This document shows positions 24,625-59,741 of a stretch of 64,000 nt of DNA, piece after piece; positions within the stretch are counted from its first letter, which is position 1; the number at the start of each line of letters is the position of its first letter. The stretch comes from Acanthochlamys bracteata. Lineage: Eukaryota > Streptophyta > Magnoliopsida > Pandanales > Velloziaceae. The stretch lies in NCBI GenBank assembly GCA_019914995.1, contig CM034131.1, positions 5,612,501-5,676,500 of the forward strand, in the 5' to 3' direction. The notes beneath the pieces were generated by a model that saw only the letters and a list, made by a program, of their open reading frames with translations, was not told where the DNA came from and did not search any database. The position numbers and the translations under genes were made by a program.

Positions 24625-24893
24625 AGGAGTTTGGGATTATTTATGAAAAGAAATTTTTATAAAATAAAGAGTATTTTTATTTTTTTTTAAAAATAAATTT
24701 TATTTTTTTATTTCAAAAAAAATAATAAAAATATGTAATAAAAAGATCTCACTCAGTAGAATTTTTTTATACTTTCTAAATTTTTAAATAAATTTTTTAT
24801 ATACTTATAAAATATATATTGAAAAACGTAAAATAAAAAAAAGTTTTAAAAAATTAATAAGTAGCTTTTTAAACGCTCTTCCAAACAGCCCCG
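24625..24893 (+). repeat. AT-rich MITE-like element, reference copy
   Basis: Bounded by GTTTGGGATTATTTATG on the left and CGCTCTTCCAAAC on the right, which together give a short imperfect inverted repeat beginning GTTTGG. The interior has a diagnostic core, AAATATGTAATAAAAAGATC followed by TCACTCAGTAGAATTTTTTT, flanked by long A/T tracts. The reverse complement of this core recurs at about 56494-56541 with very few changes, showing a dispersed repeat rather than chance composition. Confidence 0.68.
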
Positions 24894-35159: not shown

Positions 35160-35365
35160 CATTTTCCAAACTTTTTTTTAAAATTTTATTTTTAATATAT
35201 AATTTATAATTATTTAGAAAATTTATTTAAAAATTTAAAAAATATAAATAATTTACGTAATAAAATTTTTAATTATATATTTTATTATTTTTTAAAAAAT
35301 AAAAAAAATAAAATTTATTTTTAAAAAAATAAAAATATTTTTAATTAAAAAAATTTATTTTATAA
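35160..35365. repeat. AT-rich MITE-like repeat copy
   Basis: A/T-only block with mirrored halves (AAAATTTTATTTTTAATATA on the left, TTTAATTAAAAAAATTTATT on the right) and a short core around TTTACGTAATAAAATTTTTA, comparable to the cores of the other copies. Confidence 0.5.
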
Positions 35366-36429
35366 GCAATATCAATGCCACCTGAAAATGATAGATCATT
35401 ACCTTAGGGCCAACCTATTTGGGTGATCTGAAAAAAGTCTTATTAAAATAGGAGTTCTATATTGAAATGAAATCTTTTAAGTTTATTTTTTAAACAAAGA
35501 GTTCATTTCATTAGTGTATTTCGATGAAAAAGCGGTTTAGCTTTACTTTTAATAAAGATTTTATTTCATAAGGTGTATTCTGATAAAAAGAATTTTTATT
35601 TTTAACATAGGTTGACGTTGGTCTTTTTGGATAAAAAGTATTTATCAGGTAAAAGAAGAATAAAAATAACTAAAATATTTTTGAATATATTAGATGATAT
35701 ATATTAAATTTATGAATTTCTTTCACTATAAAATTTAAACATATTTAAATTTAAAATATTGTTTAATAAAAATTAACAATTTTATGTTAGTTTTTAATTA
35801 TATACAAATTTTTATAATTATGGTTGGAATACGAATGGAACTTTCAAATAATTAAGGAAAATTTTTTCCAAAATTTAGAAATATGCGTGTTATTTTTTAA
35901 ATTATCAAGCAAAAAATTTGTTTGCATTTACCGTGCAGTTTATAAATAAATCGTTCGTTTAAATAAGTAACGTTGTCATTATTTCTCAGTAAGTCCATAC
36001 CTTTCGGTCTCTTCTTTTAAAAAATTTTATAATATAAGTAGCAGTTAACGTACGGCTGGATGGGAATTGGGATGCCACAGTGTTTCGTAAAGAGATGGGT
36101 TTCAACGTCCATAATTTTATTTTTTTTTAATTTTAAATTTCAAATAATTTATATATTTTTAATTATATAAAAATTTTAAAATTTTATCTTTATATATAAA
36201 ATTTTAATTTTAATTTTTTATTTATATATTTTTTAATATAACTATATTTTTTTAATTTTTAACATAATTTTAAAATTTATTGAAATATAAATACTAAATT
36301 TTACTTTCATTTTATTTTTTTAAAAATTTTATTTTTTTTTTTATTTTTACGAAATTTAATTACAGAAATCCATCCAAAAAGCGGTGAATTTGAAAAAATG
36401 TGTACCGAAGGTGATATTTGAAGTGCTTT

Positions 36430-36600
36430 TTAATTTTAATTTTGTTTTTTAAATAAAATTTTATAATATTTATATAATAAAAAATATAAAAATTTTATGT
36501 TGTATCTTTTATTATTAATATTTTTTAAAAAATAAAATTTATTTTTAAAAAAATTAAAATATTTTTTATTTTAAAAACTTTTTTTTAAGATACTCACAGA
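36430..36600. repeat. AT-rich MITE-like repeat copy
   Basis: A/T block with the core TTTATGTTGTATCTTTTATT and flanking tracts of TTTTTAAAAAATAAAATTTA. A related but more diverged A/T block lies just upstream at about 36115-36365. Confidence 0.45.
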
Positions 36601-36789
36601 CATCCCCCAATTATTCCAATAGTTTTTCTCATATATAAACTTCTCGTAGTAGTTTTCCGGTGCTATATATGGAAGTATGCATTGTATTCACTCAAAGGGA
36701 CAACTTGCTACATGTCCATATATTCTGCATAGGATACGAGTAAAACTAATGTTAACTCAGCACAAAATCTTCCGCAGGCTATTGTTCTT

Positions 36790-36990
36790 TTTCTAACAAT
36801 TCATAAGCTTTTCTTAAAAAAAAATATTTTAAAATTTTGTAAAAATAAAATTTTATTTTTTATTTTAAAAAAATTATAAAAATAATTAATAAAAAAATTT
36901 TACAATATAGAATTTTTTTATAATAGTCTTTAAAATTTTTATTAAAAAATATGAAATAAAAATTTTGGGAGGAAAAGCTCTCCAAACATA
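36790..36990. repeat. AT-rich MITE-like repeat copy (unit 1; second copy at 45885-46050)
   Basis: A/T block from AGCTTTTCTTAAAAAA to GGAAAAGCTCTCCAAACATA with the core AATTTTACAATATAGAATTT. The two copies differ only in lengths of A and T runs, consistent with one having been copied with the 9 kb unit. Confidence 0.5.
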
Positions 36991-37799
36991 CCCATTATTC
37001 ATCTCGCAGAATTCATTTTGTTCATGCCTCTAATTTCTTTACGGGTGAGAACTTTGTTTGTTATCCTATGCATGCCTACTGCATGCCAAAGTCAAGTAGC
37101 CCTACGGATCTCAAGCTTGATTTCAATATAGGCAGCCACTGCTCAGCTCGGTTCAGTTTAGGTAACTGCTATACAGTATACTCATATCTTAAGGAATCAC
37201 CAGTAATCCAAACATGAACATGAGCCTTCCCTAAAATGTTGAAATCGTAGGCGATCCCTTTGCGATTATTTCTACACTGTATAATCTCGATATCAACTTG
37301 GTAATAGTGTGGCAATCTTTACAAACTCGGAGGTTTTTCAAGACACGGATCGGTACACCAAGCGCTAGGACTATGAGGCCAAATGCTATTGCAAGCCTTT
37401 TGCTGTGGAGATGGAGGCAGTCTTCTTTCTCACTACCGTTGGTGCCTGTGAAGAGTTCGGTGAATACGCAACAGCTGCAAGCCGCCTCTCCTCCAGCTTA
37501 TTGTATATGTTTTTCGATTGGGGTGAGTAGTATCACCAGCGATTAACTCATGGACAGCACAGTCAATCTCCACAGAGCTGCAGCCTGGTACCTTACTTAA
37601 TTATCCGCTCTTCATTCATCAACTGCCAGACCAAGCCCACATCGTTCTAACGGTTCGCAGAAGCATATCTAGACTCTGGACTCTAGGACGAAAATGCAGC
37701 TTGTGGAATCCTGTTCTGATTCAATTACCCTGTTTGCCACATTTTCACTAAATTCGATGTTGGCATTCTGTTTACAGCAGGCATCAAGCAAGCTTCTCC

Positions 37800-38690
37800 A
37801 GCTCACTACTTATATCAAGTTTCCAGGGCATGCTTGACACCAATCAAGTGCTTCGTTTATGAGCCCGGCTCTAGCTAAGAGATCACCCATGCAACACATA
37901 GTGCTCTAGCTGTGCTTTGTTTCGAAACTTTCTATCATCTCGCTGAAACATCTACGCCTTTCCGCAACCCAAACCAACATGATTGAGTTAGGTCTAACTC
38001 CGCCGGCACTAAGAAACATGGATTCCGATCACCCATGGTGGCAAGCACTAAGAACACCTACCAACATGATTGAGTTAGGTGTCTAACCCGCCGGCATTCA
38101 TCAAATCATCAAACATATTCAGAGCCTCATTAACACGTACATGCATCGCAAGACCTTGAATCATAGCCTTCCACGAAGCAATATCCCTGTTAACCATTTC
38201 ACCGAACAATTGGCGCCCAAGATAAACCGCGACACATTCCGTGTACATCTATCAACGAATTGATGATCAAAAAGCAACCGAGTAGATTATTCCTTATAGA
38301 GTGGGCGTGTAACCACCCAGCAATAGCGATCCCCAGCGCACCATCGTGCAAGATTCTGCACAGATAGATGTCCGGCGACGTGGGACCCACCGACTGTTGC
38401 ATGGCAACAGACAGTTTATAGGCTTTTGCTTAATCCGCATTAATCAGTTGCATAGGCGTCAACGGATACGTTTCCATGAGACCTGGGACTTAGTCCTGCA
38501 TGCGGTCGAACAGGTTGATGCAACTATGCAAACGACGGCACGATGAGTAGAAGCGAATGAGAATCTTGTCACATAAACATCTTGAGAGAGACCGGTTTTG
38601 ATTAAACGAGTGAATGAGCTGGCATGCCTTCAGAGAGTGAAGAGATAAGCTCAAGCTTAGAGAAATAGATGAAAGATTTATGGTCGTATG
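37800..38690 (-). pseudogene. Decayed pentatricopeptide-repeat (PPR) protein gene, unit 1
   Basis: The - strand carries fragments in PPR order, in different frames. From high to low coordinate: a frame with LIKTGLSQDVYVT shifting to LHSCINLFDRMQD; GWLHAHSIRNNLL and FLIINSLIDVHG; WKAMIQGLAMH and EALNMFDDLMNAG; a LVGVLSACHHG-like stretch; AGLINEALDWCQACP. These resemble PPR motifs of organelle RNA-binding proteins. The gene is broken by frameshifts, and by a partial duplication of about 36 bp (37973-38008 and 38060-38096, 87 bp apart). The same breaks are in unit 2, so decay preceded the 9 kb duplication. Sequence up to about 39070 may hold the former N-terminus but shows no clear motif. Confidence 0.75.
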
Positions 38691-39386
38691 AATTGCTATT
38701 GAACATTCTGTAGAAGAGTAAGACAGCTGAGTGCTTACGGTCGCCGTCAGAAAATACGAAGAAGGCGAAGGAGAATGTTGAATGAAGAAGGCGGAGCAGT
38801 TAAAGAGTAGATTGCAAGTGTAGGCAGGTTCTGCAGCGGCCGAGTAGCGAAGAAGATGTGGAGCAGATTGATGAGTCGGAGAGATGTGCGTATGGCGTGG
38901 GGTGTGGATTTGTTTGAGCTGGTGAACGGAATTGCAGTCGGTAAGGTGGTGTTGAAGCGTGGAGGAATGAAGTAATGGTGATTACCGGAGTGCTTACACA
39001 AAGTAAGGTGGTGGACCGTAAGGGAAATAACAAGTATCGCTATCAATCTCACTGCACTTCGTGTAATCACCATAATTATTGCAGTTTTGTTTGCACCTGA
39101 ACAGAAGTCGCCAGTCAGTCTTCCGTGTAACTACAGGAACGTAGTAACTTTGTTCTTTCTTGAACTGAAGACTTTCCGGTCCATTCTAATTCCACAACAA
39201 CCTTCAATTTATATTTACTTTTTGGTATCCTTGATTCGAGATACAAGTAATCAACCAATTACACTAGAAAAAAAACACCCCAACACGTTCGCTGTCGTTT
39301 CATTTTTTATTTAGTTAACGCGCTCTTTCGTTCGTTCATTAATAAGAGCCTCACCAAACCAAAGTAGCAGAATCCTCCCTGTAGCC

Positions 39387-39393
39387 TATATAG
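39387..39393 (+). promoter_or_regulatory. Putative TATA box of the DUF569 gene, unit 1
   Basis: TATATAG lies 270 bp upstream of the ATG and is followed by a CT-rich leader. An identical site is at 48469-48475 in unit 2. Position and context are reasonable; transcription start not shown. Confidence 0.5.
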
Positions 39394-39656
39394 GATATAC
39401 CCCTCTTCAATTTATCTTTTCCGTTTTCTTGCCGTGTCCCTTCCTGTTCTATCCTTCTCATTCATTTCATTTAAACTCTCATTCAATCAATTTCCACTCG
39501 ATATCTCTTCTTATTCTTCTCCAACTCCCTCAACAACAATCAAATTTGTTCATTCCATTCCATTTTTTCACGACAACAGCAACAACAGCGAAGATCCCGC
39601 AAAAGTTTCTTCCTCTGATTTTCACTCTGTTTACAAATTCTTCTCTAGGTCGATTA

Positions 39657-41920
39657 ATGGAGTTTTTCATGAAAGCGAAAGTGGTACGATTACGTAGCCA
39701 CCACGATAAATTCCTCACGGCCGACGACGACGAAGAGCATGTGAATCAAGAACGCGACGGTTCTTCACGTCGGGCACGGTGGATCGTTGAACTCCTCAAC
39801 TCCGGCGATCCAAATTCACCACCGCACGTGATCCGTCTCAAGAGTTGCTACAACAAATATCTAACTGCATCGAACGAGCCGTTCCTTCTCGGATGGACCG
39901 GTCGCAAGGTTCTACAAACCCTTCCCCGCCGTTTAGATTCTTCTCTCGAATGGGAACCGATCCGTGACGGCGCCTTGATTAAGTTTAAAACACGGTACGG
40001 AAACTACCTTCGGGCTAACGGCGGTGTGCCACCGTGGAGAAACTCTGTTACTCATGATGTGCCGTCAAGGACAGCGACGCAAGATTGGGTTTTTTGGGAT
40101 ATTGATGTTGTTGAGATTCGTGTTACTTCTCCACAACCGGCACCGTCTAGCTCCGTTAAACATGACGAAGAGGAAGAGGATAGACACCATCATCGTTCAC
40201 ACAAAGAATTGTCAAAGCTAGAGGTATTGTTAATATGTTTATAATATGATTTCTGCATAAATTCACATAGATTGGTTGATGATTTTTTAAACTCTTGTTT
40301 ATTTTTAATTATTGCTATCTGGAATATTTCAATTCTTCAAGCAAGAGACTGATCTCTCAATTGAATTCTGGTATATGTGAATCATGAACATACTTTAACA
40401 CATAAAAGAAAAGAAAAATCATTGGTGTCTCCTGTAATACAAGAATTATGGTTGATTGGTTCTATGGGTGATGAGGTCGTTAATCTTACAAATTCACTTT
40501 GAGTGGTTTTAAATGTGTTGGAATCGTATGATTAGTGAAGACAGGGTGTGAGTGAGTTCGTGTGGCTGTCTAGCTTCACTTTGTGGTTCTCCGTGGAGTC
40601 TTTGTGTGAGATGAAGGCTTTTTTTGTGGTTTTTGGCCGTTATGAGGTTTTTTAGAGTTGCTCTTCCTGTTCATTCTCTCGGTTCTCCGTGAAAATAAAT
40701 CAATTTCATCTTGTTTTTTCTGATCTGTGTTGCATTCTGGCATTGTTACCTTAAGCTTCTGCAACTGCCTCTTCAAATTGACTACTTATATTATTTAAAG
40801 ATGTAGCTACTTTTAGGGCTGTGTATCTTGCCTCAAAGTCCCTTTATGCTTCCATATCCTTTTATTTTAGCCATGAAAAAGTCCAGAAATGATACCCATG
40901 TAATTTATATTTCGTGATAGCCTAAGTGCATGGATAGACATTGTGCTTCTCAAGCTGAACTGTGGTTGCTTGTTTATTTGCAGTCATCTTCATCTTTTGG
41001 TGGCTCTCCGCCCAAAGATGAGGGTAGGACAATTTACTATTCGGTTGCTGATGATGCCGGTGAAGTAGATGAGAGCATTGAGGCACCTAGCATTACATTC
41101 AAGGGAACAAGTGTACCAGAGTTGACTCAAAAGTTGGAAGAGGAGACTGGGCTTAGTGACATATATGTTTGTTTCAGGAACCCAGTGAATGGAAAGCTTT
41201 ATCCTCTTCTTTTGCATCTTCCACCCAATAATTCAACAATGCATGTTGTGGTTGTCCAAGCATCATTAACAGGTGAGATGCTATGCTTTTTACCTTTTTC
41301 ATCAGACTTCATGGATGAGGTATTTTCTTCTCTGTGTCTTATATGATTTGATTGTTGGTCAGTGTCTACTGGTTAGGAAATCAAAATTGTTTCGCAAGTT
41401 CCTTATAAAGCATAACAATTCAATAGTGTTATGGCTGTCTTATCTATTGGTTAAGTTTGGTAGTTGTTCTATGCACAATGACAATATTGTTCATTCGATA
41501 TTGATGTTAAGGTTACTGCTTCATGAAGGAAAACAAGTTGTCAGCTAATTCCATTTTGGAGAGTTGGAAATTTTCGATTTCAATCTTGAACAGTTTCTGG
41601 CATCACTCTCTGAAGACAATTAGGCTAATGCTAATTGGTGCAATGATGTCAACTGCTTTTTCTTATGAATTATGTCATGGAGGTTCGTATTACCAGTTGA
41701 TAGTAGTCCTTGTATAGTGCTCTTTTTACATGATACTCAAGCTTGTGTTCTTACTGATCAACTTAGAGTAGTGGGACTTGCATCCTATAGTCCCAGACTA
41801 TCCATACTCAAGTTATGGTACCTTTTGTCTTTGTATAATACTTTACCCACTTTTTAGGAACTTGTTTGACGCCCTCTTTTTTTCTCTTCTGTTCCAGTGG
41901 CTAAAAGCTTCAACATTTAA
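39657..41920 (+). CDS. DUF569 protein (beta-trefoil, fascin-like 'actin cross-linking' family), intact copy
   Basis: Exons 39657-40223, 40984-41272 and 41898-41920 give 879 nt and a 292-residue protein ending VAKSFNI. The N-terminal DUF569 domain (residues about 6-155) shows VVRLRSHHDKFLTAD, SCYNKYLTASNEPFLLG and RYGNYLRANGGVPPWRNSVT, typical of the family. The second conserved part, in exon 2, has GRTIYYSVADDAGE and CFRNPVNGKLYPLLLHLPPN. Function is unproven in this family; the fold suggests ligand or actin binding. I chose ATG 39657 because it is the first in-frame ATG and opens the domain; the frame runs further upstream only from a TTG. The last exon is a 23 nt micro-exon in phase 1 (G|TG for Val), so its choice is less certain than exons 1 and 2. 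Confidence 0.88.
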
Positions 41921-43260
41921 AGAAGAGCTTGAACGGGTGGCGTTTAAGTCTATATACTCTGTACCTTACACTCAATGCATTGCACGGAATGGGATAGTGG
42001 AAGTCTTCCGGAGGCTGGCATAGCATCTTTGGCAGCACTAAAACATGGTTGTCTGGTATGGTCAGAGGTGCTTGTTTATCTATCCATCCAGTCAACAAGA
42101 AATCCTGCATGTATTCTTTGCTCTTGGTCTATGGTGCATTCATCTGGGTCCAGCTGTTAAATTTATTTTTTGTAGGTCTTACCCATCACGAACAGGTTAC
42201 AATTTTGTGCAGTGTTGTTTATGTAATCAAATACGTCTCATAATTTAGATTAAACTGTTTGTAGCTACTATATAGGCGCTTGAATGAATTTTGCAATATG
42301 TACTTCGTGTCTGCTCAAATTGCGTGAAATTACACAAACCTGCCAGCGACTGTTGTTTGTGATTCAACAGTGTATAGCTGATATTACCTCGGAAAAGGCT
42401 TGGTTGAGTTGATACATCCACGGAAGTCGTTTTAATAAGAGACAGGTACAGGTGACATCCTCGATCTTTTTAATGCGTACTCTTGCTAAAGATTTGTGAG
42501 AGTTTGAAATTATTTTTAAAAAAAATACCTCTCAGACGAAAAATATTTTAATTTTTAAAAATAAATTTTAACTTTTTAGTTAAAGAAATAATTATAAATA
42601 ATATAAAATTTTACGATGTGAAAAAAATATATTTTTAATTTAAAAATATTATAAAAATTTATTAAAAATTATAAAATAAAATTTTTAATTTTTAAAAGCA
42701 AACTAGTCCCAATCTCTATTGCCTACATTAGCGTTTTTTAAAAAAGCAAAAGGTTATTTTTAAACCAAAAATGATGATCAAAGTCTGATTAGAAGATTCA
42801 AAACTATAATATCTTAATTATTAGATGACGAAAGACAAACTTTAAAGATGAATTGAAGTAGCGTCAACTCCAAAATGCCATTACTTATTTTGTTTGTCCT
42901 CTGCCTAAGCAATATGCAGCAAATCATTTCAAGTTCAAGCATCAGGTCCTCTGCAGCCATAACATCTTTACTATTCTGGATAAAATAGCACCTAGATAAG
43001 TAAAAAACTCAGAAAATCCAACAAGGAATTAAATAGTTAAAAATGAGAATAAAATATTTTGTCTATATTGAAACAAGAGTTGTCTTCATTACCATCCAAG
43101 CTCAGTTGATTTTAGAATACTAAAGCTGAAGTTGTCAACATACATAAAAAAGAGTATTAGCGCTTGGCTACAAACTATCTCAAAAGTGAACTTATTAACA
43201 CCAAAAGAAAAGGAATCACAAATCCAACCTTGTACACATATACTACCACCTTAGTCATTG
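41921..43260. other. 3' flank of DUF569 and AT-rich spacer (unit 1)
   Basis: No gene recognised. An AT-rich repeat-like block at about 42500-42705 (core AATTTTACGATGTGAAAAAA) belongs to the MITE-like family; the equivalent in unit 2 is about 51585-51780. Confidence 0.6.
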
Positions 43261-43264
43261 GAAG

Positions 43265-43801
43265 GTTAAAGTATCATTTGATGAAGTTTATTGTACTGCC
43301 TTGTATAGTTATGAAATTATAAAGAAAGTTAAAGAAGAAAACAAGAATGAAGGAGAGGAAGATCTCGTTTAAAACGAAGGCTTGGTACAAAAGAATGTAC
43401 ATTTTCTCACGGAAAAGACCATTGGAAGAAAGATTGTCCGAAGTCTCAAAAGATAGGAAAGCCTACATCAGATATTTCTGCAGCTTGAGTGTAAGAACGG
43501 ATGTTCAGATTTTGCACTGATGGTTCGTCTGCGACATTCCATTCTAATGAGTGGATTTCTTACTCTGCTTGCACCTCCCTTATGTCTTCTAACAGGGAGT
43601 GATTCTTTAATTTTTGAAGAACTAGACGGTGGAGTTGTTTTCATGGGCAAACGATAATCCGTACAACATACTGGGGATTGGTACAATCCATTTGAAGAAT
43701 CAAGATGGCTCAACTAGAGTCCTGACGGATGTTCCAGACATGAAAAAGATCTCATCTCTTTGGGAGTCTTAGAATCTAAAGGTTTCTCCGTAAGATGGAT
43801 A
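43265..43801 (+). pseudogene. Outer Ty1/copia retrotransposon fragment: gag C-terminus, zinc knuckle, protease (unit 1)
   Basis: Degenerate + strand copia sequence. It includes a gag tail (SFDEVYCTALYSYE-like), a zinc knuckle of the form C...H-G-K-x-H-x4-C (from 43396), and a protease region with FEELDGGVVFMG-like and LISLGVLESKGFSVRW phrases, broken by stops and frameshifts. It ends abruptly at the inner copia LTR. The rest of this element is not next to it in unit 1, because the duplication breakpoint lies inside the inner copia. Confidence 0.8.
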
Positions 43802-45828
43802 TTGAAACAATTGATAAAGAAATAATAATAAAATTAAGAGAATAAATAATAATCATTAGAATTTATATGTGCAGATATTTATAGAATATATATAATGGGC
43901 TTGTCTCATATATAGTCCGATAATATAGTCAATATTCTTTCTCAAACTCATGATGGGTCAAACAACATGAGTTTGTTCAATAATATTTGAAATCTTGGTG
44001 TCGGATGCGATTTTGTAAAGAAATCTGTAGATTGATCGATAGAGACAACATGTGGTAAAAGAAATAGTACTGACGAAAATGCTCACGCGAACAGTGACGA
44101 TTAATCTCAATATGTTTGTTCGTTCATGAAAAGCTCAATTGCTTGCAATCTGAATAGTACTTGATTGTCACAATAAAGATAAAGGAGAAAAAAACTCGCC
44201 AAGAGCTCCACTATCAATAAGACTCTTTAACGAGATTGAAATATGACTTAAACGTTTGTGCCACAAATCAAGCAATGCAGACGCAACAACAACAAAGACA
44301 AACTAAGATTTGAAGTAGTTGAAAAAGAAAGATGGAGATACTCTAAGTGATCAAGAGCCTTTTTACGAAAGCACGACCAATCGTCGGCGGCATGCGAGGA
44401 TCTGCATGCAGCAGTAAAGGAATCAAAGACAACAATAAGCCCGCTTTCACAAAGAGAACTGACTGAGATTAGGTGTAGGGTGAGATGAGGAACATGTAAA
44501 ACAAAATATAGACTGAGAGAGTCAGAAATAACGGAGCCAGACTGAGTGATGGTTAGTTGAGAGCCATCAGCAGTATGTAAAGATAGAAAGTTTGGTGGTA
44601 AAGATGTCGTGTCAGATAACAATGATAGATCAGAAGTCATATGATGAGATGCACCAGAATCTAAAATTCAAGAGGAAGACATACCAGGAGCGGCGGAAGA
44701 AGCAGAGGCAAATGAACCAGCAAAAATGGATTGTCGTTGAAGCTGAAGTTCTATCTAAGCAAGACGATGGTGAATATCCGTTGAGTCATTGTTGATAGAC
44801 TGAGAGATAAGAACAAAGATCAACAACATTCGCATGCAACTAGAAGGCGAGTAGTGGAAGAATCTTTCGCCTTCTTTCGCTCTCGATACTAAGTAAGTAA
44901 ATGTGGGTGAAGCTGAAAACAACCATCCACAGTATAACCCGATTTTTTGCAATGAGTACAGAATGATTCTTTGTGAGAATGGGAAGAATTCTGCGAGAAT
45001 GAGCACGAGTGTCTCCGAAGTGGAAGGTGAAGTGCGTGAAGATGCAAAATCAAATCACGTAGATGAATCGAGAGTCAAGGTGGGTACCATCATCGAAAGA
45101 GACCGTAGCGAGTCTCCTCGGCGAATGAGCTCAAAAATGATGATGACATCTAGACCGGTGTTATTTTGTAATCTACGACCACTCACGCTTGAAATTCAGG
45201 CGCAGCCATAAGAAAACGATAAAGTTGGCGTCGTTCATGATGGATACAACGTTCATGGCGAGCCTGACCGACCTTCAAGCTTCAAGAGCTCGCGCGAAAC
45301 CTCGAATCAATGTGGCGAACTCTGGATAGTGCGATCACCCGCATGCGGCGGCTCAAGCCTCGGTGAGAATTTGATACTCTCAGCACCACTTGATTGAACA
45401 AACCGAGTAGTCGAGACTCCCATAATAATGCAGCAGTCGGGATGTCTTCAAGATGTGGTCGAAGAGATCGATCAACAAATGCAATGATAGATGCAAGAAT
45501 TGTTTCATCATGATCATCCCAAATGTTATCGCAATACAAATATTATTCTTTACCTCAATAGAAGCATCATCCGGTGGTGAGAGAGGACGAATCAGAGCCA
45601 TCAAGATGGCCATAAGGCGGCGTCCCACGAAGAATAGTTCTAATCAAGCGGCCCATTCAAATTTCAATCATCGCCAGTGCTCAAAGAAAAATCTATGGAT
45701 GTCGGTAGAAAGTGCCGAAAGAACTCAAACGAAGGCATCATCAAAATAATTTTTTTTTTAGTGAAACGAGCCGGGCCTAAAGATCGGGCGGGCCGATCCA
45801 ATGCGGCGATGACTAGGATTTGGTAAAC
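43802..45828 (-). mobile_element. Inner Ty1/copia element, truncated copy (unit 1)
   Basis: Begins with a 130 bp LTR (43802-43931), then RNase-H tail, pre-integrase, protease and gag read on the - strand, and is cut off in the gag leader at the duplication junction. Its 5' LTR and primer site are absent. It aligns with 52879-54924 of unit 2, but patches at about 44010-44420, 44800-45240 and 45290-45700 are scrambled relative to unit 2, while 44440-44800 is almost identical. Confidence 0.85.
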
Positions 45829-46879
45829 CTAATGTTAACTCAGCACAAAATCTTCCATAGGCTATTGTTCTTTTTCTAACAATTCATAAGCTTTTCTTAA
45901 AAAAATATTTTAAAATTTTGTAAAAATAAAATTTTATTTTTTATTTTAAAAAATTATAAAAATAATTAATAAAAAATTTTACAATATAGAATTTTTTATA
46001 ATAGTCTTTAAAATTTTTATTAAAAAATATGAAATAAAAATTTTGGGAGGAAAAGCTCTCCAAACATACCCATTATTCATCTCGCAGAATTCATTTTGTT
46101 CATGCCTCTAATTTCTTTACGGGTGAGAACTTTGTTTGTTATCCTATGCATGCCTACTGCATGCCAAAGTCAAGTAGCCCTACGGATCTCAAGCTTGATT
46201 TCAATATAGGCAGCCACTGCTCAGCTCGGTTCAGTTTAGGTAACTGCTATACAGTATACTCATATCTTAAGGAATCACCAGTAATCCAAACATGAACATG
46301 AGCCTTCCCTAAAATGTTGAAATCGTAGGCGATCCCTTTGCGATTATTTCTACACTGTATAATCTCGATATCAACTTGGTAATAGTGTGGCAATCTTTAC
46401 AAACTCGGAGGTTTTTCAAGACACGGATCGGTACACCAAGCACTAGGACTATGAGGCCAAATGCTATTGCAAGCCTTTTGCTGTGGAGATGGAGGCAGTC
46501 TTCTTTCTCACTACCGTTGGTGCCTGTGAAGAGTTCGGTGAATACGCAACAGCTGCAAGCCGCCTCTCCTCCAGCTTATTGTATATGTTTTTCGATTGGG
46601 GTGAGTAGTATCACCAGCGATTAACTCATGGACAGCACAGTCAATCTCCACAGAGCTGCAGCCTGGTACCTTACTTAATTATCCGCTCTTCATTCATCAA
46701 CTGCCAGACCAAGCCCACATCGTTCTAACGGTTCGCAGAAGCATATCTAGACTCTGGACTCTAGGACGAAAATGCAGCTTGTGGAATCCTGTTCTGATTC
46801 AATTACCCTGTTTGCCACATTTTTCACTAAATTCGATGTTGGCATTCTGTTTACAGCAGGCATCAAGCAAGCTTCTCCA

Positions 46880-47771
46880 GCTCACTACTTATATCAAGTT
46901 TCCAGGGCATGCTTGACACCAATCAAGTGCTTCGTTTATGAGCCCGGCTCTAGCTAAGAGATCACCCATGCAACACATAGTGCTCTAGCTGTGCTTTGTT
47001 TCGAAACTTTCTATCATCTCGCTGAAACATCTACGCCTTTCCGCAACCCAAACCAACATGATTGAGTTAGGTCTAACTCCGCCGGCACTAAGAAACATGG
47101 ATTCCGATCACCCATGGTGGCAAGCACTAAGAACACCTACCAACATGATTGAGTTAGGTGTCTAACCCGCCGGCATTCATCAAATCATCAAACATATTCA
47201 GAGCCTCATTAACACGTACATGCATCGCAAGACCTTGAATCATAGCCTTCCACGAAGCAATATCCCTGTTAACCATTTCACCGAACAATTGGCGCCCAAG
47301 ATAAACCGCGACACATTCCGTGTACATCTATCAACGAATTGATGATCAAAAAGCAACCGAGTAGATTATTCCTTATAGAGTGGGCGTGTAACCACCCAGC
47401 AATAGCGATCCCCCAGCGCACCATCGTGCAAGATTCTGCACAGATAGATGTCCGGCGACGTGGGACCCACCGACTGTTGCATGGCAACAGACAGTTTATA
47501 GCTTTTGCTTAATCCGCATTAATCAGTTGCATAGGCGTCAACGGATACGTTTCCATGAGACCTGGGACTTAGTCCTGCATGCGGTCGAACAGGTTGATGC
47601 AACTATGCAAACGACGGCACGATGAGTAGAAGCGAATGAGAATCTTGTCACATAAACATCTTGAGAGAGACCGGTTTTGATTAAACGAGTGAATGAGCTG
47701 GCATGCCTTCAGAGAGAGTGAAGAGATAAGCTCAAGCTTAGAGAAATAGATGAAAGATTTATGGTCGTATG
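46880..47771 (-). pseudogene. Decayed PPR protein gene, unit 2
   Basis: Counterpart of the PPR relic at 37800-38690, with the same fragments, the same internal 87 bp-spaced repeat and the same frameshift between the DVYVT and FYSSC segments. One extra C near 47411 and a GAGA insertion near 47713 are unit-specific. No functional product expected. Confidence 0.75.
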
Positions 47772-48739
47772 AATTGCTATTGAACATTCTGTAGAAGAGT
47801 AAGACAGCTGAGTGCTTACGGTCGCCGTCAGAAAATACGAAGAAGGCGAAGGAGAATGTTGAATGAAGAAGGCGGAGCAGTTAAAGAGTAGATTGCAAGT
47901 GTAGGCAGGTTCTGCAGCGGCCGAGTAGCGAAGAAGATGTGGAGCAGATTGATGAGTCGGAGAGATGTGCGTATGGCGTGGGGTGTGGATTTGTTTGAGC
48001 TGGTGAACGGAATTGCAGTCGGTAAGGTGGTGTTGAAGCGTGGAGGAATGAAGTAATGGTGATTACCGGAGTGCTTACACAAAGTAAGGTGGTGGACCGT
48101 AAGGGAAATAACAAGTATCGCTATCAATCTCACTGCACTTCGTGTAATCACCATAATTATTGCAGTTTTGTTTGCACCTGAACAGAAGTCGCCAGTCAGT
48201 CTTCCGTGTAACTACAGGAACGTAGTAACTTTGTTCTTTCTTGAACTGAAGACTTTCCGGTCCATTCTAATTCCCGCAACAACCTTCAATTTATATTTAC
48301 TTTTTGGTATCCTTGATTCGAGATACAAGTAATCAACCAATTACACTAGAAAAAAAACACCCCAACACGTTCGCTGTCGTTTCATTTTTTATTTAGTTAA
48401 CGCGCTCTTTCGTTCGTTCATTAATAAGAGCCTCACCAAACCAAAGTAGCAGAATCCTCCCTGTAGCCTATATAGGATATACCCCTCTTCAATTTATCTT
48501 TTCCGTTTTCTTGCCGTGTCCCTTCCTGTTCTATCCTTCTCATTCATTTCATTTAAACTCTCATTCAATCAATTTCCACTCGATATCTCTTCTTATTCTT
48601 CTCCAACTCCCTCAACAACAATCAAATTTGTTCATTCCATTCCATTTTTTTCACGACAACAGCAACAACAGCGAAGATCCCGCAAAAGTTTCTTCCTCTG
48701 ATTTTCACTCTGTTTACAAATTCTTCTCTAGGTCGATTA

Positions 48740-51000
48740 ATGGAGTTTTTCATGAAAGCGAAAGTGGTACGATTACGTAGCCACCACGATAAATTCCTCA
48801 CGGCCGACGACGACGAAGAGCATGTGAATCAAGAACGCGACGGTTCTTCACGTCGGGCACGGTGGATCGTTGAACTCCTCAACTCCGGCGATCCAAATTC
48901 ACCACCGCACGTGATCCGTCTCAAGAGTTGCTACAACAAATATCTAACTGCATCGAACGAGCCGTTCCTTCTCGGATGGACCGGTCGCAAGGTTCTACAA
49001 ACCCTTCCCCGCCGTTTAGATTCTTCTCTCGAATGGGAACCGATCCGTGACGGCGCCTTGATTAAGTTTAAAACACGGTACGGAAACTACCTTCGGGCTA
49101 ACGGCGGTGTGCCACCGTGGAGAAACTCTGTTACTCATGATGTGCCGTCAAGGACAGCGACGCAAGATTGGGTTTTTGGGATATTGATGTTGTTGAGATT
49201 CGTGTTACTTCTCCACAACCGGCACCGTCTAGCTCCGTTAAACATGACGAAGAGGAAGAGGATAGACACCATCATCGTTCACACAAAGAATTGTCAAAGC
49301 TAGAGGTATTGTTAATATGTTTATAATATGATTTCTGCATAAATTCACATAGATTGGTTGATGATTTTTTAAACTCTTGTTTATTTTTAATTATTGCTAT
49401 CTGGAATATTTCAATTCTTCAAGCAAGAGACTGATCTCTCAATTGAATTCTGGTATATGTGAATCATGAACATACTTTAACACATAAAAGAAAAGAAAAA
49501 TCATTGGTGTCTCCTGTAATACAAGAATTATGGTTGATTGGTTCTATGGGTGATGAGGTCGTTAATCTTACAAATTCACTTTGAGTGGTTTTAAATGTGT
49601 TGGAATCGTATGATTAGTGAAGACAGGGTGTGAGTGAGTTCGTGTGGCTGTCTAGCTTCACTTTGTGGTTCTCTGTGGAGTCTTTGTGTGAGATGAAGGC
49701 TTTTTTGTTGTGGTTTGGCCGTTATGAGGTTTTTTTAGAGTTGCTCTTCCTGTTCATTCTCTCGGTTCTCCGTGAAAATAAATCAATTTCATCTTGTTTT
49801 TTCTGATCTGTGTTGCATTCTGGCATTGTTACCTTAAGCTTCTGCAACTGCCTCTTCAAATTGACTACTTATATTATTTAAAGATGTAGCTACTTTTAGG
49901 GCTGTGTATCTTGCCTCAAAGTCCCTTTATGCTTCCATATCCTTTTATTTTAGCCATGAAAAAGTCCAGAAATGATACCCATGTAATTTATATTTCGTGA
50001 TAGCCTAAGTGCATGGATAGACATTGTGCTTCTCAAGCTGAACTGTGGTTGCTTGTTTATTTGCAGTCATCTTCATCTTTTGGTGGCTCTCCGCCCAAAG
50101 ATGAGGGTAGGACAATTTACTATTCGGTTGCTGATGATGCCGGTGAAGTAGATGAGAGCATTGAGGCACCTAGCATTACATTCAAGGGAACAAGTGTACC
50201 AGAGTTGACTCAAAAGTTGGAAGAGGAGACTGGGCTTAGTGACATATATGTTTGTTTCAGGAACCCAGTGAATGGAAAGCTTTATCCTCTTCTTTTGCAT
50301 CTTCCACCCAATAATTCAACAATGCATGTTGTGGTTGTCCAAGCATCATTAACAGGTGAGATGCTATGCTTTTTTACCTTTTCATCAGACTTCATGGATG
50401 AGGTATTTTTTCTCTGTGTCTTATATGATTTGATTGTTGGTCAGTGTCTACTGGTTAGGAAATCAAAATTGTTTCGCAAGTTCCTTATAAAGCATAACAA
50501 TTCAATAGTGTTATGGCTGTCTTATCTATTGGTTAAGTTTGGTAGTTGTTCTATGCACAATGACAATATTGTTCATTCGATATTGATGTTAAGGTTACTG
50601 CTTCATGAAGGAAAACAAGTTGTCAGCTAATTCCATTTTGGAGAGTTGGAAATTTTCGATTTCAATCTTGAACAGTTTCTGGCATCACTCTCTGAAGACA
50701 ATTAGGCTAATGCTAATTGGTGCAATGATGTCAACTGCTTTTTTCTTATGAATTATGTCATGGAGGTTCGTATTACCAGTTGATAGTAGTCCTTGTATAG
50801 TGCTCTTTTTACATGATACTCAAGCTTGTGTTCTTACTGATCAACTTAGAGTAGTGGGACTTGCATCCTATAGTCCCAGACTATCCATACTCAAGTTATG
50901 GTACCTTTTGTCTTTGTATAATACTTTACCCACTTTTAGGAACTTGTTTGACGCCCTCTTTTTCTCTTCTGTTCCAGTGGCTAAAAGCTTCAACATTTAA
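48740..51000 (+). pseudogene. DUF569 gene, unit 2, frameshifted in exon 1
   Basis: Exons equivalent to the intact copy are 48740-49305, 50067-50355 and 50978-51000. Exon 1 is 566 nt instead of 567: the T run at 49173-49177 has five T where unit 1 has six (40090-40095). The frame shifts at about residue 145 (after QDWVF) and runs 42 codons to a stop at 49301-49303, losing the end of the first domain and all of the exon 2 domain. Exon 2 and all splice sites are unchanged. Either a fresh mutation in a redundant copy or a sequencing error in a homopolymer. Confidence 0.85.
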
Positions 51001-52339
51001 AGAAGAGCTTGAACGGGTGGCGTTTAAGTCTATATACTCTGTACCTTACACTCAATGCATTGCACGGAATGGGATAGTGGAAGTCTTCCGGAGGCTGGCA
51101 TAGCATCTTTGGCAGCACTAAAACATGGTTGTCTGGTATGGTCAGAGGTGCTTGTTTATCTATCCATCCAGTCAACAAGAAATCCTGCATGTATTCTTTG
51201 CTCTTGGTCTATGGTGCATTCATCTGGGTCCAGCTGTTAAATTTATTTTTTGTAGGTCTTACCCATCACGAACAGGTTACAATTTTGTGCAGTGTTGTTT
51301 ATGTAATCAAATACGTCTCATAATTTAGATTAAACTGTTTGTAGCTACTATATAGGCGCTTGAATGAATTTTGCAATATGTACTTCGTGTCTGCTCAAAT
51401 TGCGTGAAATTACACAAACCTGCCAGCGACTGTTGTTTGTGATTCAACAGTGTATAGCTGATATTACCTCGGAAAAGGCTTGGTTGAGTTGATACATCCA
51501 CGGAAGTCGTTTTAATAAGAGACGGGTACGGGTGACATCCTCGATCTTTTTAATGCGTACTCTTGCTAAAGATTTGTGAGAGTTTGAAATTATTTTTAAA
51601 AAAATACCTCTCAGACGAAAAATATTTTAATTTTTAAAAATAAATTTTAACTTTTTAGTTAAAGAAATAATTATAAATAATATAAAATTTTACGATGTGA
51701 AAAAAATATATATTTTTTAATTTAAAAATATTATAAAAATTTATTAAAAATTATAAAATAAAATTTTTAATTTTTAAGGCAAACTAGTCCCAATCTCTAT
51801 TGCCTACATTAGCGTTTTTAAAAGCAAAAGGTTATTTTTAAACCAAAAATGATCACAAGTCTGATTAGAAGATTCAAAACTATAATATCTTAATTATTAG
51901 ATGACGAAAGACAAACTTTAAAGATGAATTGAAGTAGCGTCAACTCCAAAATGCCATTACTTATTTTGTTTGTCCTCTGCCTAAGCAATATGCAGCAAAT
52001 CATTTCAAGTTCAAGCATCAGGTCCTCTGCAGCCATAACATCTTTACTATTCTGGATAAAATAGCACCTAGATAAGTAAAAAACTCAGAAAATCCAACAA
52101 GGAATTAAATAGTTAAAAATGAGAATAAAATATTTTGTCTATATTGAAACAAGAGTTGTCTTCATTACCATCCAAGCTCAGTTGATTTTAGAATACTAAA
52201 GCTGAAGTTGTCAACATACATAAAAAAGAGTATTAGCGCTTGGCTACAAACTATCTCAAAAGTGAACTTATTAACACCAAAAGAAAAGGAATCACAAATC
52301 CAACCTTGTACACATATACTACCACCTTAGTCATTGGAA

Positions 52340-52878
52340 GGTTAAAGTATCATTTGATGAAGTTTATTGTACTGCCTTGTATAGTTATGAAATTATAAAG
52401 AAAGTTAAAGAAGAAAACAAGAATGAAGGAGAGGAAGATCTCGTTTAAAACGAAGGCTTGGTACAAAAGAATGTACATTTTCTCACGGAAAAGACCATTG
52501 GAAGAAAGATTGTCCGAAGTCTCAAAAGATAGGAAAGCCTACATCAGATATTTCTGCAGCTTGAGTGTAAGAACGGATGTTCAGATTTTGCACTGATGGT
52601 TCGTCTGCGACATTCCATTCTAATGAGTGGATTTCTTACTCTGCTTGCACCTCCCTTATGTCTTCTAACAGGGAGTGATTCTTTAATTTTTGAAGAACTA
52701 GACGGTGGAGTTGTTTTCATGGGCAAACGATAATCCGTACAACATACTGGGGATTGGTACAATCCATTTGAAGAATCAAGATGGCTCAACTAGAGTCCTG
52801 ACGGATGTTCCAGACATGAAAAAGATCTCATCTCTTTGGGAGTCTTAGAATCTAAAGGTTTCTCCGTAAGATGGATAT
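52340..52878 (+). pseudogene. Outer Ty1/copia retrotransposon, left part: gag, zinc knuckle, protease (unit 2)
   Basis: Same content as 43265-43801: gag tail, zinc knuckle from 52472 and degenerate protease ending GVLESKGFSVRW. It is interrupted at 52879 by the LTR of the inner, oppositely oriented copia. The element resumes at 55433. Confidence 0.82.
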
Positions 52879-53008
52879 TGAAACAATTGATAAAGAAATA
52901 ATAATAAAATTAAGAGAATAAATAATAATCATTAGAATTTATATGTGCAGATATTTATAGAATATATATAATGGGCTTGTCTCATATATAGTCCGATAAT
53001 ATAGTCCA
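52879..53008 (-). repeat. 3' LTR of the inner copia element
   Basis: 130 bp, starting TGAAACAATTGA and ending ATAGTCCA on the + strand. It matches 55303-55432 at the same length with scattered substitutions, largely transitions, so the insertion is not very recent. The unit 1 counterpart is 43802-43931. Confidence 0.85.
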
Positions 53009-53053
53009 ATATTCTTTCTCAAACTCATGATGGGTCAAACAACATGAGTTTGT

Positions 53054-53299
53054 TCAATAATATTTGAAATCTTGGTGTCGGATGCGATTTTGTAAAGAAA
53101 TCTGCCAGTTGATCAGTAGAGACAACATGTGGTAAAGAAATAGTACCTGACAGAAAATGCTCACGAACGAAGTGACAGTTAATCTCAATATGTTTCGTTC
53201 GTTCATGAAAACTGAATTGCTTGCAATCTGAATAGTACTTCGATTGTCACAATAAAGATAAAGGAGAAAAAGAAACTCGCCCAAGAGCTCCACTATCAA
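53054..53299 (-). pseudogene. RNase H C-terminal remnant of the inner copia
   Basis: The - strand reads LYCDNRSTIQIASNS and, after a frameshift, fragments of the form HFVREHFLSGTISLPH and STDQLADFFTKSHPTPRFQ. These are the conserved end of copia RNase H, carrying one of its catalytic Asp residues (CDN). It is joined directly to the pre-integrase segment near 53270, so the region between the two was deleted. Confidence 0.85.
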
Positions 53300-54833
53300 T
53301 AAGACTCTTTAAACGAGATTCAGAAATATGACTTAAACGTTTGTGCCACAAATCAGCAGCAGACGCAACAACAACAGCACAACTAAGATTTGAAGTAGTT
53401 GAAAAAGAAAGATGGAGATACTCTAAGTAATACAGTAGCCCCTTTTTACGAGCACGACCAATCGTCTGGCCGGTACGAGGATCCTGCACAGAACAGGTAA
53501 GGGAATCAAAGACAACAATAAGCCCGCTTTCACAAAGAGAACTGACTGAGATTAGGTGTAGGGTGAGATGAGGAACATGTAAAACAAAATATAGACTGAG
53601 AGAGTCAGAAATAACGGAGCCAGACTGAGTGATGGTTAGTTGAGAGCCATCAGCAGTATGTAAAGATAGAAAGTTTGGTGGTAAAGATGTCGTGTCAGAT
53701 AACAATGATAGATCAGAAGTCATATGATGAGATGCACCAGAATCTAAAATCCAAGAGGAAGACATACCAGGAGCGGCGGAAGAAGCAGAGGCAAATGAAC
53801 CAGCAAAAATGGATTGTCGTTGAAGCTGAAGTTCTATCTAAGCAAGACGATGGTGAATATCCGTTGAGTCATTGTTGATAGACTGAGAGATAAGAACAGC
53901 ATCAACAACATTCGCCTGTGCAACTAGAAGGCGAGTAGTGGAAGAATCTTTCGCCTTCTTTCGCTCTCGATACTAAGTAAGTAAATGTGGGTGAAGCTGA
54001 AAACAACCATCCACAGTATAACCCGATTTTTTGCAATGAGTACAGAATGATTGCTGACGAGAATGGGAAGAATTCCTGCGAGAATGAGCACCAGTGTCTC
54101 CCGAAGTGGAAGGTGAAGTGCATGAAGATGCAGCAAATACTGTAGAATCAGGAGTCAAGGTGGGTACCATCATCGAAAGAGACCGTAAGCGAGTCTCCTC
54201 GGCAATGAGCTCAAAAATGACAGCATCTAGACTGGTGTTATTTTGTATGATACGACCACTCACTGCTTGAAATTCTGGACGCAAAGCCATAAGAAACTGA
54301 TAAAGTTGACGTCGTTCATGACAGATACAACGTTCATGGCAGGCACAGCCATGACCTTCAAGCTTCAAGAGCTCGCGCCAGTAACCTCGAATCAATGTAG
54401 CGAACTCCTGGATAGTGCGATCACCCTGTCTGGCAGCTCAAGCCTCGGTGAGAATTTGATACTCTCTAGCACCACTTGATTGAACAAACTGAGTAGTCAG
54501 AGACTCCCATAATAATGCAGCAGTCGGGATGTCTTCAAGATGTGGTCGAAGAGATCGATCAACAAATGCAATGATAGATGCAAGAATTCGTTCATCATGA
54601 TCATCCCAAATGTTATGCGCAATACAAATATTATTCTTTACCTCAATAGAAGCATCATCTGGTGGTGAGAGAGGACGCTGAATAGAGCCATCAAGATGGC
54701 CAATAAGACGACGTCCACGAAGAATAGTTCTAACTGAAGCAGCCCATTCAGCCCAATCATCAGCAGTACTCAAAGAAAAATCTATGGATGTCGGTAGAAA
54801 GTGCCGAAAGAACTCAAACGAAGGCATCATCAA
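53247..54833 (-). pseudogene. gag-protease reading frame of the inner copia, three in-frame stops
   Basis: One frame runs from 54833 to 53247 with only three stops: TGA at 54438-54440, TAG at 53973-53975 and TAG at 53838-53840. Gag shows ADDWAEWAASVRTIL, LEDIPTAALLWESL and GYWRELLKLEG; a zinc knuckle (CTHCKKSGYTVDGC) lies near 54015-54060; the protease has WILDSGASHHM near 53730-53760; the pre-integrase has LWHKRLSHISESRLKSL near 53290-53340. The start at 54833 is ATG within a short methionine run. No functional polyprotein can be made because of the stops and the missing replication domains. Confidence 0.85.
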
Positions 54834-54924
54834 AATAATTTTTTTTTTTTTTTAGTGAAACGAGCCGGGCCTAAAGATCGGGCCGGGCTGATCCGAATGC
54901 AGCAGTGACTAGGATTTGGTAAAC

Positions 54925-55170
54925 GGGCTGGCCAGAAACAGGCGGGCGGGTGTCTGCGGCGGCGGGCGACTGCGGCGGCGATAGTAGGTGATGGCACGAA
55001 GCTTCAGCAGTGGAACGGCGACGGGACTGCAATGAAGATCGCGACGGATCGACGGCAGGCAGCAAGGAGGCGATGAAGACGGCAGCGGCGGCGGAAAAGT
55101 GAAGGTGCAGCGGTGAAAAATTAATACAGCGGCGGCACAGAAAGACGACGGCGACGGCGGCGAATAAAAA
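54925..55170 (-). other. CGG-rich untranslated leader of the inner copia
   Basis: About 245 bp dense in CGGCGG, GGCGGGCGGG and GACGGCG, in sharp contrast to the AT-rich surroundings. It lies between the 5' LTR/primer site and gag, where copia elements carry the leader. Much of it has three-base periodicity. Confidence 0.7.
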
Positions 55171-55287
55171 AGTAATTCTTTTTTTTTTAATAATTTAAAT
55201 CAGACGAGAGAAAAAAAAATTTTTTTAATGAAGATGATAGATTGAAAATAAGTCAATTGAAAAATAAAAAAATTTTTGTAAAAATCA

Positions 55288-55302
55288 ACTTGGCTCGATA
55301 TC
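55288..55302 (-). promoter_or_regulatory. Degenerate tRNA-iMet primer binding site
   Basis: Directly after the 5' LTR the - strand reads TGATATCGAGCC. The usual plant copia primer site, complementary to initiator Met tRNA, is TGGTATCAGAGC; one substitution and one missing base separate them. This fixes the LTR boundary and the element's orientation. Confidence 0.75.
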
Positions 55303-55432
55303 ATGAAACAATTGATGAAGAACTAATAATAAATTGAGAGAATGAATAATAATTATTAAAATTTATATGTACAGATATTTATAAAATATATATAATAGAT
55401 TTGTCTTATATATAGTTCAATAATATAGTTCA
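55303..55432 (-). repeat. 5' LTR of the inner copia element
   Basis: 130 bp, TGAAACAATTGA to ATAGTTCA on the + strand, paired with 52879-53008. Very short for a copia LTR. It lies outside the 9 kb duplicated unit and so exists once in the window. Confidence 0.85.
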
Positions 55433-55980
55433 ATAAATATCTCTGATCATTTATGTACTGCTGAAGCAGAAAAGAGTGAGTTTTGATTTTGTAATCTACG
55501 AAACAAAAGATATCTTGGATTATATCCATGAGTGGCAAACACTTTAACTTTTGTAGATGATTACTAAGAAGATTTTGGGTCAATCTCGTGAAGACGAATG
55601 ATGATGTGTTAGAAAGTGCCTAAAGTGGAAAACGAGACTTAGACCGGGTACATAGATTAAACACCTAAGGTTTGATTACAAGACCAAGTACATAAACGAC
55701 CCATTTCGAGAGCTTCTCAAGACGAAGACATTGTGCGGCACTTCACAATTCGAAATAATAGAATTGTAGAACGCTTGAACTGGATTTTGTTGGAGAAGGT
55801 TCGACGTATGTTGTCAACTGCTAAATTAGAGAAGCAGTTTTGGGTTTAGGCTTTAATGTATGCTTGTGATCTATAGATCAGAATTCAGGCCTGACTTCTC
55901 GTGCTCCTACTCTACTCTGGCTAATAGAATATGGATTTCTCTTTGCGATCAAGAAAAGGCTTCTTTTTTGTTTCTCGAGA
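55433..55980 (+). pseudogene. Outer Ty1/copia retrotransposon, right part: pre-integrase end and integrase
   Basis: The + strand resumes copia homology with KQKRVSFDFVIYETK and LDYIHEW, then DYYSRRFWVNLVKTNDD-like integrase sequence, then EDIVRHFTIRNNRIVERLNW and LLEKVRRMLSTAKLEKQFW. Frameshifts, stops and deletions are frequent. Relative to the usual copia order, an estimated 80-90 codons between protease and this point are missing at the inner insertion. The match fades near 55950 and no reverse transcriptase is recognisable. Confidence 0.8.
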
Positions 55981-55984
55981 AAAA

Positions 55985-56205
55985 TAATATGAGATTACTT
56001 ATAAAATAAAATTTTTAAAATAAATGATTTTTTTTAAATATGAATTTTATTTTTTTATTTTTAAAAAAATAATATAAAAATAATATAAAAAATTTTATTA
56101 TATAAAATTTTTTTTATAATTTAAATTTTTAAATATTTATAAAATATATATTAATAAATATAAAAAATAAAAAAGAGTGTTTTAAATGTAACTCTAAACG
56201 CACAC
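55985..56205. repeat. AT-rich MITE-like repeat copy
   Basis: A/T block from TGAGATTACTTATAAAATAA to TTTAAATGTAACTCTAAACG with a core around AAAAAATTTTATTATATAAA. It resembles the family in layout; ends approximate. Confidence 0.5.
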
Positions 56206-56372: not shown

Positions 56373-56637
56373 GTTTGGTTCTCCGTTTCATAAATAATTT
56401 ATCAATTTTTTTAATTTTTTTATTATTTTATATTTTTTAATATATATTTTATAAGTATATAAAAAATTTATTTAAAAATTTAAAAAATTTAGAAAAATTC
56501 TACGAAGTGAGATCTTTTTATTACATATTTTTATTATTTTTTTTGAAATTAAAAAAATAAAACTTATTTTTTAAAAAAAATAAAAATATTTTTCATTTTA
56601 TAAAAACTTAATTTCATAAACTTTATTTTTATTATCA
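56373..56637 (-). repeat. AT-rich MITE-like element, inverted relative to the copy at 24625
   Basis: Begins GGCGTTTGGTTCTCCG and contains AAAAATTCTACGAAGTGAGA followed by TCTTTTTATTACATATTTTT, the reverse complement of the 24625-24893 core with very few changes. Both copies are about 265-270 bp, supporting one mobile family. Confidence 0.68.
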
Positions 56638-59600: not shown

Positions 59601-59741
59601 TGTTTTTGTCTTTCACCTTTGAACAACTCTCTGGAGCTTTTTCCAACAAAAATAAGCGGATGATGGCCGTCCCCCACTGGTTGTTTAAGAATTGCCTGGG
59701 TCGTTGTAGTTGTAGGAGCATGACCATATACCATGTTGTGT
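56640..59741. other. Spacer without a recognised gene
   Basis: From about 57480 to 58950 the base composition is less AT-biased than the flanks and short exon-like frames occur. An example is + strand LMRSAKWRLGVPQLRVNEDK at about 58827-58886, followed by a GGTACTC donor-like site at 58919. None matches a family I know. The rest looks non-coding. Confidence 0.4.

Follow-up and report, generated by a model that had tools for sequence, protein, structure and literature searches.

A probable very recent head-to-tail duplication of ~9.09 kb in Acanthochlamys bracteata, with copies that differ mainly at homopolymers and CAG/CTG sites

The 64,000-nucleotide stretch of Acanthochlamys bracteata DNA analysed here (the window) belongs to contig C6 (CM034131.1, positions 5,612,501 to 5,676,500) of assembly GCA_019914995.1, which represents a genome of 195.5 Mb in 557 contigs. 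Its most conspicuous feature is a pair of adjacent head-to-tail units of 9083 and 9096 bp, in each of which the end of a DYW-type gene and a DUF569 gene with a ubiquitin-like domain are followed, on the right-hand side, by the 3′ part of a Copia-type retrotransposon on the minus strand (Table 1). Unit coordinates were obtained by self-comparison of the window followed by alignment of one unit against the other, and they reproduce the boundaries given in the initial annotation, which had described a ~9.09 kb repeat that was either very recent or an assembly artefact. Protein domains were identified by Pfam scans of the genes in unit 1 and of the element in unit 2. The frame of the first DUF569 exon is open in unit 1 and in a paralogue on chromosome C4, whereas in unit 2 it is shifted, one T being missing near 49172.

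The self-comparison match pairs 36730-45828 with 45814-54924 at 97.8% identity. This alignment of 9164 columns contains 84 mismatches and opens 90 gaps. The two units meet at a continuous junction (45828/45829), and the window does not contain a single N. As had been noted from the sequence, the junction lies inside the leader of a transposon, now recognized as the Copia-type element, and what comes next is the sequence found just after the left flank. We rejected an origin in which two element copies recombined with each other, because the sequence to the right of the junction does not belong to the element. The GTAAA context previously reported on both sides is present, but the shared context is longer, spanning ~16 bp (TAGGAT..GTAAA), and is imperfect; among random position pairs within 30000-60000, 119 of 20000 matched or exceeded it. 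Of 385 places in the genome that were candidates for the element, 40 were scored and 30 were fetched, one of which was unit 2 itself (L012), leaving 29 family copies (L013-L041). In two of these (L017 and L019) the alignment runs unbroken from ~54800 through 54924 to 55435. Since these copies span position 54924 in one piece, we take the right edge of unit 2 as original and the junction at 45828/45829 as derived.

The overall identity of 97.8% is a mean of two very different regions, namely an almost identical gene part (36746-44022, 7277 bp) and an element part (44028-45809 versus 53105-54905) dense in differences. In the gene part, differences were grouped into 29 clusters, of which 18 concern homopolymer length only, 5 more have a CAG or CTG no further than 4 bases away and 6 belong to neither class. 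Accordingly, the statements that homopolymer changes prevail here and that such a spectrum is not that of ordinary divergence are both borne out, and the runs singled out earlier do differ between the units at or beside the positions named (an A run at 36816 and T runs at 39562, 40090, 41292-41295 and 41877). Only 2 of 168 CAG/CTG sites are disturbed in this region. By manual count, which omits columns read as shifted runs or as insertions or deletions, ~8 columns are possible substitutions; all are transitions, and three alter a CAG or a CTG. The C4 paralogue is too diverged outside the exons to serve as a reference for most of the homopolymer differences; the T run near 40090/49172 was the only one that the reading frame allowed us to judge. 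Two neighbouring trinucleotides, at 42444 and 42450 of unit 1 (51524 and 51530 of unit 2), are CAG in the former and CGG in the latter, a hint that miscalls may sit in unit 2 as well.

The dense differences of the retrotransposon part, centred on CAG and CTG, had not been described. Here, of the 72 CAG/CTG sites that unit 2 contains, 43 are altered in unit 1, compared with 347 of 1823 for all trinucleotides. CAG and CTG are affected alike (21 of 37 and 14 of 24 touched), CCG/CGG is hit in 2 of 15 cases, and CCC (5 of 11) and CCT (6 of 12) are also raised. Out of 65 difference clusters, 43 have a CAG or CTG within 4 bases, 4 involve homopolymers only and 18 fit neither description. A CAG or CTG is found no further than 4 bases away for 94 of the 137 differing unit-2 bases, as against 572 of all 1588 bases. 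The disturbed sites are arranged in zones with clean zones between them, one of which holds 16 consecutive intact CAG/CTG sites, and the final differences before the junction (45793-45809) again sit at CAG/CTG. Deamination was rejected as the cause, as the changes include insertions, deletions and scrambled bases in addition to C-to-T.

Comparison with the element family identifies unit 1 as the deviant copy in this region. Identity to the 29 family copies is 91.1-94.1% for unit 2 and 85.1-87.9% for unit 1. At the 172 columns that differ between the units (in ~1.67 kb), the majority state of the family is that of unit 2 in 161 cases and that of unit 1 in 10, with one tie. Unit 1 shows a state absent from all 29 copies at 115 of these columns and unit 2 at 7, one of them being private to both. 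Furthermore, the stretch contains 33 CAG plus CTG trinucleotides in unit 1, 61 in unit 2 and 49-68 in the family copies. When the unit-1 stretch was used as a query, unit 2 was recovered at 92% and no other place exceeded 88% among the 40 of 296 candidates that were scored, so none of the scored places shares the garbled sequence of unit 1.

These data bear on two accounts in which the differences between the units would be genuine. An older duplication, whose copies have truly diverged, and fast in the element, would be suggested by the 97.8% identity taken at face value. It would nonetheless have to reconcile 172 changed columns in ~1.67 kb of element with some eight plausible substitutions in the adjoining 7.3 kb, and changes that centre on CAG/CTG and lead away from the family majority; the family comparison led us to reject true fast divergence of the retrotransposon part, and we regard an older duplication as extremely improbable. 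In the second account, two haplotypes were placed in tandem (a heterotype false duplication) and the differences are allelic. A few isolated gene-part transitions, for example at 37364 and 40592, could indeed be heterozygous sites; yet the bulk of the differences are homopolymer lengths and garbled CAG/CTG sites rather than single-nucleotide polymorphisms, and 115 of the 172 unit-1 states in the element are found in none of the 29 family copies. This account, too, is very improbable.

Most of the differences fit consensus errors of sequencing, in part in homopolymer length and in part as miscalls at what would be CHG-methylated cytosines of the element. Equal damage to CAG and CTG, sparing of CCG/CGG, location in a retrotransposon and accompanying homopolymer errors are together what would be expected from native nanopore reads over 5-methylcytosine in the CHG context, called by a basecaller untrained for it; it is from this pattern that we infer the platform and the methylation. 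The intact zone in unit 1 and the 29 other copies, which are not short of CAG/CTG, suggest that polishing with short reads mended most places and failed where the reads favoured a second copy that was already clean and otherwise identical. There are partial precedents. In one bacterium, Dcm (5-methylcytosine) motifs, CCAGG/CCTGG, were reported to account for ~70% of consensus errors made with the Oxford Nanopore basecallers of the time (PMC6591954), and lower basecaller accuracy has been expected from plant methylation (PMC9749173); the passages of the two papers relied on here name neither CHG nor CAG/CTG. A limited literature search brought to our notice no paper on such a CAG/CTG pattern in plant assemblies. 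As this error class accounts for most of the differences that homopolymers leave, it strengthens the near-identity of the units, and the two alternatives of the initial annotation, a very recent duplication or an artefact, prove to be the right pair.

The artefact would most plausibly take the form of one locus assembled twice: a first contig ended in the element at 45828, a second began 9.08 kb earlier, and no gap was left when they were linked, their overlap having gone unrecognized because the end of the first contig was garbled. False duplications of this ‘homotype’ class, caused by read errors, have been described, with gaps between copies on the same scaffold named in the passage cited as characteristic of false duplications (PMC9516828); no N marks the present junction. 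Near-identity of the gene part is what such an event would produce. So is the position of the garbled sequence, which lies at the end of unit 1 and adjoins the junction, just as a poor contig end with a missed overlap would, and is confined in the element to unit 1, whereas random polishing would be expected to leave a mosaic. On the other hand, the homology at the breakpoints would then be due to chance, and the final differences before the junction fall on CAG/CTG sites, unlike the random errors expected where a contig thins out at its end. Genome searches likewise revealed only two near-identical copies: a query with 39300-41300 returned the two units, a C4 paralogue of 79-84% identity and one short match of 77%, and a query with 36300-37700 returned, among the 40 of 2366 candidates that were scored, the two units, a C4 stretch of 81% and numerous short hits on an AT-rich repeat, leading us to reject a third near-identical copy. 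On balance, we hold a doubly assembled locus to be a doubtful explanation, and a false duplication of either kind is, overall, still unlikely.

Given the near-identity of the units, the duplication is either very young or false, and the sequence leans towards the former as the more likely. We favour a real duplication on the grounds that the junction has no gap, that the breakpoints share homology, that the errors near the junction are systematic rather than random and that no third near-identical copy was found. Thus, a real and very recent tandem duplication, with differences that are mostly nanopore consensus errors, is in our judgement probable. The fuller version of this scenario, in which the copies would be identical or nearly so, perhaps private to the sequenced plant or segregating, and the garbled CAG/CTG sites of unit 1 would be a footprint of CHG methylation where polishing failed, stands at about even chances. 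Besides the one-sided location of the garbled sequence, several observations weigh against the favoured interpretation. The breakpoint homology is imperfect, with C at the join where the left flank has A; 18 of the 65 element clusters fit neither error class, and for 43 of the 137 differing unit-2 bases the nearest CAG or CTG is more than 4 bases away; and 6 of the 29 gene-part clusters are likewise neither homopolymer-only nor within 4 bases of such a site.

In the proposed course of events, a single 9.08 kb stretch, extending from the end of the DYW-type gene across the DUF569 gene into the 3′ part of a Copia-type retrotransposon in decay, would have been duplicated head to tail. A point in the leader of the element would have been joined to a point ~9 kb upstream at the short imperfect homology TAGGAT..GTAAA, either by end joining or through a template switch. 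About 60 bp inside the left edge lies the start of an AT-rich, partly palindromic repeat (36804-36966) that might have stalled replication, which we offer as a suggestion only. The consensus errors would then have persisted because short reads cannot distinguish the units and went to the copy mended first. Both the route of repair and the existence of a second copy in the plant are what we infer from the assembled sequence. The kind of event is ordinary. At the mutation rate of Arabidopsis, ~7e-9 per site and year, the duplication would be at most ~80,000 years old if all of the ~8 possible substitutions in 7277 bp were real, and far younger, or no duplication at all, if they are mostly errors. 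The case shows how an apparent 2.2% divergence of tandem copies can be mostly sequencing error, with the consequence that a duplication would be misdated and that a DUF569 copy might be mistaken for a pseudogene. More generally, where near-identical copies in a plant assembly differ chiefly around CAG/CTG, this gives simple warning of methylated sequence that was left unpolished.

The surroundings of the duplication place it in a wider context. On chromosome C4, a homoeologous block, probably the trace of an old whole-genome duplication, has a single DUF569 gene, a count that speaks for the duplication proposed above, and the gene that lies next on the right follows it in the same order; a relative of the DYW-type gene lies on C4 on the other side. 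This block (L042-L044, C4:5262001-5292000) is inversely oriented and includes the counterpart of the gene at 57474-59836 of the window. AT-rich, partly palindromic repeats resembling miniature inverted-repeat transposable elements occur at 24640-24860, 35173-35365, 36804-36966, 56030-56149 and 56399-56620; the repeat is dispersed genome-wide, most of the 40 scored places (of 2366 candidates) matching at ~70-84%. The retrotransposon itself has repeats of ~138 bp that resemble long terminal repeats (LTRs) and are 87% identical, with no clear target-site duplication discernible by eye. This copy seems to be without most of pol near 53248-53252. Three of the four element frames tested have no Pfam match, and Pfam found nothing in 53025-53243, which may be RNase H-like judging from its motifs. 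Most of the 29 other copies start matching at 53251-53255, and one (L034) matches 52878-53248 at another place. Elsewhere in the window, Pfam detected a LOB-domain gene (61505-61909, minus strand) and a haloacid dehalogenase-like hydrolase match in the exon 31881-32219, presumably part of a P-type ATPase judging from its motifs. There are also a 42 bp tandem repeat in two copies (62383-62466) and an adjacent ~180 bp pair of 85% identity (2805-3204).

Table 1 Features of the duplicated locus (window coordinates)
Feature	Position	Strand	Basis or remark
Left-flank sequence like the right breakpoint, TAGGAT..GTAAA	36730..36745	none	self-comparison and breakpoint comparison
Unit 1 of tandem duplication	36746..45828	none	9083 bp; self-comparison
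DYW-type gene end, unit 1	37234..37497	-	PF14432, E 3.1e-19
DUF569 gene, first exon, unit 1, frame open	39657..40241	+	PF04601, E 2.8e-68; same frame as C4 paralogue
DUF569-associated ubiquitin-like domain exon, unit 1	40921..41343	+	PF22932, E 2.4e-13
3′ LTR-like repeat, unit 1	43798..43934	-	87% to 55297-55435
Garbled stretch of unit 1, mainly at CAG/CTG sites, in zones	44028..45809	none	unit and family comparison
Clean zone, 16 consecutive intact CAG/CTG sites	44459..44800	none	equally long run in 0 of 10000 shuffles
Junction	45814..45848	none	retrotransposon leader TAGGATTTGGTAAAC to 45828, then the sequence after the left flank, CTAATG..., from 45829
Unit 2 of tandem duplication	45829..54924	none	9096 bp; self-comparison
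DYW-type gene end, counterpart in unit 2	46312..46575	-	reading frame
DUF569 first exon, unit 2, frame shifted	48740..49303	+	T run one base shorter near 49172
Ubiquitin-like domain frame, counterpart in unit 2	50004..50627	+	reading frame
3′ LTR-like repeat, unit 2	52874..53011	-	87% to 55297-55435
Pol_BBD and gag_pre-integrase frame, unit 2	53250..53837	-	PF22936, E 4.8e-13; PF13976, E 2.1e-9
Two further element frames, unit 2	53976..54851	-	gag by position only; no Pfam match
Right breakpoint in element leader	54910..54924	none	element runs on to ~55435
5′ LTR-like repeat, single, outside the duplication	55297..55435	-	self-comparison and family copies

The locus can be compared with four known systems. 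With Copia-type LTR retrotransposons the element shares the Pol_BBD and gag_pre-integrase domains, the LTR-like repeats and a presence at ~39 other places among the 40 scored of 385 candidates, whereas the apparent loss of most of pol and the other tested frames, which are without Pfam matches, set this copy apart. The errors reported at Dcm motifs in the cited part of PMC6591954 resemble those described here in their concentration at CAG/CTG, the core of CCAGG/CCTGG, and in the homopolymer errors beside them; they differ in that the present case concerns a plant retrotransposon and CAG/CTG in general, with a platform and a methylation state deduced from the sequence. Homotype false duplications, as characterized in the passage cited from PMC9516828, likewise place two almost identical copies side by side, one of which probably contains sequencing errors, but here no gap separates the copies. 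Finally, the head-to-tail units, continuous junction, short breakpoint homology and near-identity are those of recent tandem segmental duplications, that is, copy-number variants, from which the present case differs in being known from an assembly alone and in a breakpoint homology that is imperfect and exceeds chance only modestly.

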